Part shown: positions 35,051-43,672 of the stretch, piece after piece
Numbering within the stretch: position 1 is the first letter of the stretch
Layout: each line of letters starts with the position of its first letter
DNA from: Clostridia bacterium
GTDB lineage: Bacteria; Bacillota; Clostridia; Oscillospirales; Acutalibacteraceae
Length of the DNA stretch: 56,186 bases
Assembly: GCA_017380575.1 (NCBI GenBank)
Contig: JAFODS010000068.1
Span: 1-56,186, forward strand
Reading direction: 5' to 3'
Translations under genes and position numbers: made by a program
Notes under the pieces: generated by a model
Told to the model about the DNA's origin: nothing
Seen by the model: the letters and a program-made list of their open reading frames with translations, nothing else
Databases searched by the model: none

Positions 35051-35079
35051 GCTTGTGATGACAAGATTATGTATACGAC

Positions 35080-35390
35080 AAATTCGGGTTTGTAGGGTTC
35101 TTTATTTCGCACAATACATCTCTGTGTACGTAGGGACCGGCCTCCCGGACGGTCCGCAGATTCTGCTGTGTTAACGGACGGTCGAGGACGCCCGTCCCTA
35201 CGCAGTTGACTGAAACAGGGTTCGTAGGGGCAGATATCATCTGCCCGCGGAATTTATGCGATTTTTCGGGAACATAATATGTTCCCCTACAGGCACGATT
35301 TCAGAACATTGGTCGTAGGGCACGACGTTTACGACGTGCCGATATCCTTCAAAAATTACGGTGTGTCGCAAGCGTCACACCTGCAAGAAG
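35080..35390. repeat. Array A of GTAG-hairpin / hairpin-CTAC modules (REP/BIME-like)
   Basis: Three modules lie in a row: A1 35129-35202, A2 35223-35290, A3 35314-35384. Each begins (C)GTAGGG and A1 and A2 end CCCTAC(G), and each holds two separate hairpins with a short linker, for example GGGCAGAT/ATCTGCCC and GGGAACAT/ATGTTCCC in A2. Unrelated arm sequences still pair perfectly. The same modules occur inverted at 43.15-43.64 kb; A1 differs from its copy at four of 74 positions. The left border (AATTCGGGTTTGTAG near 35081) is also shared. Open frames across this DNA are artefacts of its GC-rich repeats. Confidence 0.88.
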
Positions 35391-35430
35391 ATTTAAACAT
35401 TCCGATAGATTTGGGTCTGTCTGTTTGTTG

Positions 35431-35561
35431 CCACCTCATCCGCCTCGTTCCTCGGCACCTTCCCCTCAAGGGGAAGGCGGAGAAACTACGCAAGTCCAAG
35501 GCTTCTCCTTGAGGAGAGGCTCCGCCGTAGGCGGTGGTGAGGTATAGGTTGCAACGCAACC
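35431..35561. repeat. Long imperfect palindrome (MITE-like element)
   Basis: The ends CCACCTCATCCGCC (35431) and GGCGGTGGTGAGG (to about 35542) are imperfect inverted repeats. Inside are two hairpins, CTTCCCCT/AGGGGAAG and TCTCCTTGAGGAGA. A further small hairpin, GGTTGC/GCAACC, follows at 35547-35561. There is no transposase, so it would be non-autonomous. The remaining stretch to 35729 shows nothing I can support. Confidence 0.75.
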
Positions 35562-43085: not shown

Positions 43086-43116
43086 TTTTGGAAATATATT
43101 GATAATGAATTTACCA

Positions 43117-43672
43117 ATTCGGGTTTGTTGAACAAATTTCAAATTATTATTGTAGGGGACGACGTCCCTTTAAAATTTGTTATGATTTAGTGGTCGATTC
43201 GTGAATCGCCCCTACGAACCCTGTTTTAGTTAACTGCGTAGGGACGGGCGTCCTCGACCGTCCGTTAAGTCAGCGTAATCTGCGGACCGTCCGGGAGGCC
43301 GGTCCCTACGAGCACAGAGTCAGATTGTGCAAAATCAAAGAACTCTACAAACCCGAATTTGGCAGGATATTTAAAACCTTCTTGTAGGGTGTGACGCTTG
43401 CGACACACCGTTAAATACAGCAGAATATCGGCACGTCGTAAACGTCGTGCCCTTCTGACTCTACGCAAGACGAGTCTGTAGGGGAGCCGTTTCGGCTCCC
43501 ACGAATTACGCTGTTTTTTCGGGACGGGAAACCCGTCCCCTACGACCAATGTTCTGAAATCGTGCCTGTAGGGGAACATATTATGTTCCCGAAAAATCGC
43601 ATAAATTACGCGGGCAGATGATATCTGCCCCTACGATGTTTATTCTTATTTTGCTCTACAAATCCGAATCTG
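43117..43672. repeat. Array B of GTAG-hairpin / hairpin-CTAC modules (inverted relative to array A)
   Basis: Five modules: B0 43152-43216, B1 43237-43310, B2 43384-43453, B3 43478-43544, B4 43568-43635. B1, B2 and B4 are reverse complements of A1, A3 and A2 from array A. B0 and B3 are new but keep the same plan: GTAGGGG, hairpin, AT-rich linker, hairpin, CCCCTACG. B3 has GGGAGCCG/CGGCTCCC and GGGACGGG/CCCGTCCC. Border sequence AACCCGAATTTG (near 43350) is shared with array A. No protein gene is supported in 43090-43720. Confidence 0.88.

Follow-up and report, generated by a model that had tools for sequence, protein, structure and literature searches.

The hairpins of IS200/IS605 elements are subterminal, lying at the element ends and outside the ORF. 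A RAYT gene is described as flanked by two inverted REPs (Nunvar 2010). In E. coli, TnpAREP cuts at CT and the REPs have an obligatory bulge (PMC8266576). REPs have also been reported inside many genes (Di Nocera et al. 2013, PMC3733652), and in tnpAREP genes of subclass 2.4 they are found in frame, generally between the HUH and the Y, where they probably have little impact on activity (Quentin et al. 2018, PMC6006769). The hosts given for subclass 2.4 in the text of that paper are Cyanobacteria, Bacteroidetes, and various phyla, and the main text of PMC3733652 holds no mention of Firmicutes or of names beginning with Clostridi. The REPs described here come from Clostridia.

The DNA analyzed, referred to as the window, is a stretch of 56,186 nucleotides from a Clostridia bacterium (GCA_017380575.1, contig JAFODS010000068.1). 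The initial annotation described paired GTAG-hairpin modules at 35129-35384. These are real, as three inverted GTAG-hairpin doublets were found at 35130-35381, far above the number in shuffled sequence. Each doublet follows the same plan: GTAG at the start and CTAC at the end enclose two hairpins with a short linker between them, the first hairpin opening with GG or GGG. The annotation had given the shared start as (C)GTAGGG; GTAG followed by a stem opening with GG was retained, but the third stem base already varies. The stems differ from each other and yet stay complementary, as had been claimed, so pairing is kept across stems.

The left edge of this first array carries a frame motif, ACAAATTCGGGTTTGT (35078-35093, plus strand). 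Doublet 1 consists of GTAG+GGACCGGCCTCCCGGACGGTCC at 35130-35155 on the plus strand and GTAG+GGACGGGCGTCCTCGACCGTCC at 35176-35201 on the minus strand; the latter is an exact match to an in-gene hairpin of a RAYT from another genome (L197, genome G233). Doublet 2 joins GTAG+GGGCAGATATCATCTGCCC (35224-35246, plus) to GTAG+GGGAACATATTATGTTCCC (35268-35290, minus). In doublet 3, GTAG+GGCACGACGTTTACGACGTGCC (35315-35340, plus) is followed by the partner hairpin GGTGTGTCGCAAGCGTCACACC (35360-35381, minus), whose foot has decayed to CTGC instead of CTAC, leaving five of the six hairpins with a GTAG foot. The GGCACG/GGTGTG partner pairing of this last doublet was seen four times among the doublets of the same genome. 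Adjoining the array, at 35431-35545, is a different, long imperfect palindrome (CACCTCATCCGCC ... CACCTTCCCCTCAAGGGGAAGG ... GGCGGTGGTGAGGT); its core was present in 3 of 299 loci, all three being overlapping copies of this one place.

A second, longer array was found at 43152-43634, in which several stem types of the first array recur in other combinations. Its left edge is marked by the frame motif AATTCGGGTTTGT (43116-43128, plus), which is followed by a shortened REP hairpin, GTAGGGGACGACGTCCC (43152-43168, plus), by GTAG+GGGCGATTCACGAATCGACC (43192-43215, minus), by GTAG+GGACGGGCGTCCTCGACCGTCC (43238-43263, plus), and by GTAG+GGACCGGCCTCCCGGACGGTCC (43284-43309, minus). An inverted frame motif then occurs at 43347-43359 (minus). 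Beyond it lie GTAG+GGTGTGACGCTTGCGACACACC (43384-43409, plus) and, by eye, the partner hairpin GGCACGTCGTAAACGTCGTGCC without a CTAC foot (43430-43451, minus), a partner type also present among doublets elsewhere in the genome. The array ends with GTAG+GGGAGCCGTTTCGGCTCCC (43478-43500, plus), GTAG+GGGACGGGTTTCCCGTCCC (43521-43543, minus), GTAG+GGGAACATATTATGTTCCC (43568-43590, plus), and GTAG+GGGCAGATATCATCTGCCC (43612-43634, minus). Both arrays are intergenic.

A scan for GTAG hairpins across 35061-35400 returned 5, compared to a mean of 0.0065 and a maximum of 1 in 2000 dinucleotide shuffles of the same stretch. Over the entire window the scan found 15, of which 13 were within the two arrays and 2 elsewhere, while shuffles gave a mean of 0.52 and a maximum of 3 (n = 100), and seven control feet gave 0-4 hairpins each. 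Folded as single-strand DNA, doublets 1, 2, and 3 had z-scores of -2.57, -4.79, and -3.02, respectively.

Next, the repeats were counted across the source genome, a draft that is 88.8% complete. The pattern GTAGGGN8-30CCC had 67 + 77 matches compared to 30 + 33 for the reversed pattern, so that a genome with few copies is excluded. Thirty stretches were taken around sites among the first of these 144 matches, some of which are due to chance. In these stretches and the two window arrays, neighbors less than 60 nt apart alternated in orientation in 66 of 67 cases (+- 40, -+ 26, and ++ 1). The spacer within +- doublets was 20, 21, 22, or 23 nt in 22, 9, 5, and 4 cases, respectively. These 40 doublets represent nine stem combinations, the commonest of which occurred 11 times; some stems had more than one partner, and none of the 40 joined two equal stems.

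Like the REPs, REPINs, and BIMEs of Proteobacteria as described in PMC3116915 and PMC2817692, the repeats have a GTAG foot and a hairpin, occur as inverted doublets in intergenic mosaics, and are present in many copies. They are unlike them, in the terms of those two papers, in that doublets join different stems across spacers of 20-23 nt, many stem types coexist in one genome, and the host belongs to Bacillota. The GTAG foot, the dimers, the intragenic units, and the link to a RAYT are also shared with the GTAG-tagged REP families as presented by Di Nocera et al. (2013). Structure, copy number, and arrangement leave next to no doubt that the modules of the window represent REP doublets (REPINs), gathered in BIME-like mosaics in the genome of a gut Clostridia bacterium. 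The proposal of a Clostridia counterpart of REP/BIME sequences was therefore borne out by the GTAG foot, the many copies, and the inverted doublets. Transcription terminators or other immobile RNA hairpins would suit the intergenic position of both arrays. Such a role is extremely improbable given the GTAG foot, the alternating orientation, the fixed spacers, the genome-wide multiplicity, and the counterparts within genes that are described below; at the gathering threshold, Rfam identified only a tRNA in the window and no family that matches the hairpins.

Many arrays are bordered at a constant distance by the inverted frame motif ACAAATTCGGGTTTGT. Twelve framed units were collected from the genome stretches and the window, and 8 of these were 246-248 bp, with a mosaic hairpin content. 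Sequence conservation falls beyond the frame motif. The bordering motif, the mosaic contents, and this drop in conservation indicate that movement or copying of the mosaics also takes place in larger units. This raises the alternative that the window arrays are pieces of a larger composite element with ACAAATTCGGGTTTGT as inverted ends, moved by something unrelated to RAYTs, and that the GTAG hairpins are mere filling. The common length and the conservation boundary are what such an element would produce, but the hairpin content differs between framed units, 5 of the 30 stretches had no frame motif at all, no shared or consistent target duplication was detected by eye at the framed units, and RAYT genes themselves contain hairpins of this kind, in some cases identical ones. 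We consider this explanation quite improbable. Remnants of a larger DDE-type element had been named as a possible origin of the modules. A framed composite unit does exist, but its contents are mosaic and its 246-248 bp are too short to hold a transposase gene; a DDE transposon remnant or MITE would fit the inverted frame motif but is improbable on these grounds, and no consistent target duplication was seen by eye.

The annotation also predicted that a Y1 HUH transposase resides elsewhere in the genome. A search with Y1_Tnp (PF01797) gave five matches. Two of them, L001 and L002, scored 127-130 bits. Neither gene contains a GTAG hairpin, one has internal stops, and both resemble ordinary IS200-type genes. 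The prediction was confirmed by four RAYT-type ORFs, all open: L003, L004, L005, whose Y1_Tnp match was below the family cut-off, and L175 (G000:C14:34501), which was found with an alignment of the other three. The three resident proteins scanned with NF047646 scored 70.1-74.4 bits, below its curated cut-off of 80, and the model matched 60 of 60 aligned representatives. A profile of 60 relatives matched the solved structure of E. coli TnpArep (4er8) with an E value of 1.9e-12, and the HUH and the Tyr of YIxxNP were invariant in the 60-member alignment.

The same hairpins were expected to flank the transposase gene. For the most part they do not, and are found inside the ORF instead. L003, L005, and L175 each contain two GTAG hairpins within the ORF; L004 has one inside, and its inverted partner begins 43 nt past the stop codon. 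The stems of the four resident RAYTs are GGGACGGG, GGGCGATT, GGCGGGGG, and GGGCGTCC.

A larger set was assembled from a scan of named genomes (the best 80 of 545 confirmed), from relatives, and from 295 genomes of the order. A RAYT match was present in 85 of the 295 genomes, from which at least 30 loci were taken, plus 60 further loci by hand. Removal of 19 of the 184 ORF hits (11 duplicates, 6 that were too short, and 2 without HUH) left 165 RAYT ORFs. Both hairpins were present in 128, only the first (site A) in 8, only the second (site B) in 16, and neither in 13, which gives at least one in-frame hairpin in 152 of 165. Since the search model was built from hairpin-bearing genes, RAYTs in general may have the pair less often than these 128 of 165. 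Site A lies on the coding strand before the HUH and site B on the opposite strand after it, so that the two are mutually inverted, and a hairpin in the wrong orientation was seen in 0 of 165 ORFs at site A and 1 of 165 at site B. At site A, the GTA is read as a codon of the ORF in 131 of 136 cases. Among 3300 synonymous-codon shuffles, a hairpin at A arose in 50, at B in 57, and at both in none.

Within a gene, the two hairpins match. They were of equal length in 127 of 128 genes, the identity of their 8-nt arms was 0.970, and the arms were exactly the same in 99 of 128. Between genes the stem is highly variable, with 50 distinct A arms among the 128 genes. In an earlier set of 118 genes, A/B arm identity was 0.968 compared to 0.59, and at most 0.63, after permutation. 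The in-gene and free copies share one signature: a pyrimidine precedes GTAG in 126 of 136 A sites, 137 of 144 B sites, and 99 of 101 free copies of the source genome, and a G follows the hairpin in 122 of 136, 127 of 144, and 91 of 101, respectively.

Outside Clostridia, a RAYT on a Leptolinea plasmid had GTAG hairpins on both sides of the gene and none inside, and a Spirosoma RAYT had no GTAG hairpin inside the gene. With one resident protein as the query, RAYTs matched 2 of 72,556 plasmid records and 1 of 50,697 phage records, and viral contigs contributed 2 loci, which provides no obvious vector. The RAYTs of a gut record labeled as phage (L297) and of a viral contig (L298) carry both A and B inside. 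Four genomes (G203, G177, G148, and G188) had 7-9 RAYT matches each, some of which were fragments, unlike the single gene per REP type that PMC6006769 describes in other bacteria.

Compared by the motifs tabulated in PMC6006769, the clostridial RAYTs resemble subclass 2.4 (NHxH, WQ, YIxNNP) in having NHxH or DHxH, WQ, and YIxxNP, and also in their long GTAG REPs with a GC-rich foot and in the in-frame REPs within the gene. They are unlike subclass 2.4, as that paper presents it, in having two fixed sites around the HUH that are inverted, switch together, and replace external REPs. The REPs in subclass 2.4 genes have been in print since 2018. The literature that was searched contained no description of a matched pair at two sites in inverted arrangement, or of such a pair taking the place of flanking REPs.

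The in-gene stems were then compared with those of the window. None of the four resident RAYT stems occurs at 35130-35381; the enzyme for the stems of this array is absent from the resident RAYT set that was found. Two of the five types in the array, GGGCAGAT and GGGAACAT, had no in-gene counterpart among the 165 RAYT ORFs. In the same comparison, GGACGGGC was exact in L197, the arm of GGACCGGC was common to L168 and L172, and GGCACGAC shared only an 8-nt arm with one in-gene hairpin of another length (L199). In the second array, the stem of L003 is exact at 43521-43543, being identical to its in-gene hairpin B, and the arm of L004 is present at 43192-43215. The stem of L005 has no free exact copy genome-wide. 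On the basis of family membership, RAYTs of the sort found here are the likely makers of the window modules, and may have moved them in trans as the annotation proposed.

Whether the two stems of a gene change together was examined on a FastTree tree built without the hairpin-coded residues. The stem changes at least 69 times at A and at least 73 times at B. Among 63 independent pairs on separate branches, 20 shared the stem at both A and B, 35 differed at both sites, and 8 differed at just one (Fisher 3e-9, Spearman 0.89). An example is provided by four genes with 68-77% DNA identity where aligned: three stems occur, one common to L118 and L083, one in L142, and one in L159, and each gene has its own stem at both sites. 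L118, L083, and L142 also align over approximately 300 nt upstream, and L159 over approximately 80. The match is unlikely to result from a constraint on the protein, since the two sites lie on opposite strands and, in most genes, in different frames. Between A and B, 3.7% of stem positions and 16.7% of loop positions are mismatched; copying of whole hairpins alone would not spare the stems, which suggests selection on both pairing and identity. Stem pairs that differ did so on both sides in 29 cases, 26 of them compensated, and on one side only in 24. Among the distinct in-gene hairpins, all four Watson-Crick types are represented at several inner pairs, although the detector requires pairing and this adds little alone. 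A G.A or A.G mismatch at pair 7 was observed in 26 of 72 distinct 22-nt in-gene hairpins; by analogy, it may correspond to the recognition bulge described for E. coli REPs in PMC8266576.

The protein segment between the hairpins was also compared for pairs with the same stem and pairs with different stems. At equal C-terminal identity, its identity was 0.449 versus 0.392, 0.475 versus 0.416, 0.539 versus 0.44, and 0.588 versus 0.466, while the N-terminal segment was about equal between the two kinds of pairs. Given the other two segments, however, stem type was followed by the C-terminal segment as well (residual 0.10, compared to 0.06 in the middle segment and 0.004 in the N-terminal one), and the pairs are non-independent. 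This is only a hint that the segment between the hairpins might follow the stem type. Two RAYTs with different stems and little DNA similarity (L144 and L233) occupy the same neighborhood, with both flanks aligning; this could reflect a site preference or, alternatively, rapid divergence of genes that stayed where they were.

The hairpins outside the gene were examined in the 150 genes that have 500 nt on each side (15 had less). Among genes with the full internal pair, 88 of 115 had no external GTAG hairpin, whereas 26 of the 35 genes with an incomplete pair or none had one (Fisher 1e-7). Only 2 of the 150 genes had no hairpin either inside or outside, and 10 of the 150 had external hairpins on both sides within 500 nt. 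The internal and external distributions are thus complementary, and the internal pair takes the place of the REPs that flank other RAYTs; in contrast to the RAYTs covered in Nunvar (2010), flanking by external REPs is mostly replaced. The external hairpins near genes with both A and B have the exact arm of their own gene in 19 of 64 cases, compared to a mean of 1.1 and a maximum of 6 with random genes. In L110 and L127, at the 3' ends, and in L119, by eye, the TAG stop codon of the RAYT forms part of the GTAG foot of a further external hairpin.

These distributions bear on the possibility of autoregulation, in which the in-gene hairpins, in mRNA or single-stranded DNA, are a binding site that limits the expression of the RAYT itself. 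Hairpins in the coding sequence with orientation and frame kept could serve this purpose, and A and B could pair with each other at long range. However, autoregulation leaves unexplained why external hairpins share the stem and why they can take the place of internal ones. To our knowledge, RNA binding by RAYTs is not established. We regard this explanation as very doubtful.

Exact in-gene hairpin patterns, P1-P3, were searched in 80 of the 85 RAYT-bearing genomes, and the reversed-pattern controls were all zero. P1 was present in 13 of 80 genomes, with 82, 18, 18, and 12 copies in the four where P1 was seen in a RAYT and 1-16 copies in 9 of the 76 others (14 in the source genome). P2 was present in 17 of 80; the four known carriers had 7, 4, 4, and 2 copies, no higher than other genomes, of which 13 of 76 had up to 15. 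P3 was present in 15 of 80, with 63, 10, 2, and 2 copies in the four known carriers and up to 14 in 11 of the 76 others. In three genomes, the source genome (G000) and G252 for P3 and G097 for P2, the in-gene pair represents the only exact copies genome-wide. Many free populations, including the modules at 35130-35381, have no known resident source, and RAYTs outside the sample may account for some of these copies.

Another possible explanation of the pair is passive insertion: resident REPs would jump into two permissive loops of the RAYT, which acts near its own locus, and the hairpins would have no role there. In a comparison with E. coli TnpAREP (4er8), site A is additional sequence that separates a weakly aligned first stretch from a second aligned one, and site B spans a 7-residue gap, as permissive loops would. 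In-gene REPs are also known in many genes and are read as tolerated in loops in the relevant parts of PMC3733652 and PMC6006769. However, the hairpins occupy the same two positions in one orientation in 128 of 165 ORFs. The three genomes with only in-gene exact copies have no resident source population of the exact type, which speaks against the pair being inserted resident REPs. The complementarity with external hairpins and the compensated stem changes are also not expected from passive insertion. We therefore consider it unlikely. The in-gene pair is probably the enzyme's own recognition site, kept in cis.

The locus of L003 provides one case of an insertion. L003 sits at a junction of yraN-like and thrC genes (names read from the sequence) that is uninterrupted in L266, L267, and L268 from the same genus. 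The source genome has the RAYT flanked by AAAACAAAT and CACATTC, and AAAT is present at each edge. The insert is approximately 508 bp and extends from 11 nt before the start codon to a point no more than 2 nt from the stop codon; it is also missing, with less exact edges, from four further relatives. No GTAG hairpin is present outside the ORF at this locus, and hairpins A and B lie approximately 130 and 190 nt from the insert ends. The enzyme shares the Y1 HUH fold with IS200/IS605, and one reading of the AAAT at both edges is that insertion took place 3' of a tetranucleotide, as in those elements; unlike theirs, the hairpins of clostridial RAYTs are inverted and within the ORF. The edges do not have the CT at which TnpAREP of E. 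coli cuts, and the hairpins are far from the ends, so neither accounts for how the DNA was inserted. Arrival of a clostridial RAYT as an ORF-sized unit is suggested by this one case. The RAYT loci compared held no second empty site, and other insert edges (nine gene pairs, in unrelated contexts) had no sharp boundary.

These data are consistent with the following model. The movers of window-type repeats would be RAYTs, Y1 HUH enzymes that, judging by their family, recognize single-stranded GTAG hairpins. In the sampled genes, the clostridial RAYT usually carries its own REP pair in frame and inverted around the HUH-coding part, and the two members keep one stem, which changes freely between genes. 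Gene and target would then reach a new genome as one compact unit, the arrived enzyme would seed free hairpin copies, and old populations, including most of those in the window, would persist after their RAYT was lost or its stem switched. We tentatively propose, as a possibility that falls somewhat short of an even chance, that the clostridial RAYT gene is a complete ORF-sized mobile element with its recognition hairpins in the coding sequence, that gene and target specificity switch together, that the segment between the hairpins possibly reads the stem, and that each new gene founds its own dispersed hairpin population. The stems at 35130-35381 that are unmatched in the resident RAYTs and the free copies with no known in-gene source count against reading the pair as the enzyme's own target, as do the edges of the L003 insert and the distance of its hairpins from the ends. 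The upper stem and loop of E. coli REPs are not read specifically according to PMC8266576, so a strict stem match is not expected.

With two copies of its own target in each gene, and with stems that have switched dozens of times on the tree, the clostridial RAYTs would provide a natural series of matched enzyme-target pairs. The specificity of RAYTs could thus be mapped through the comparison of sister genes. If this reading is true, it would place REP/RAYT systems firmly in gut Clostridia.
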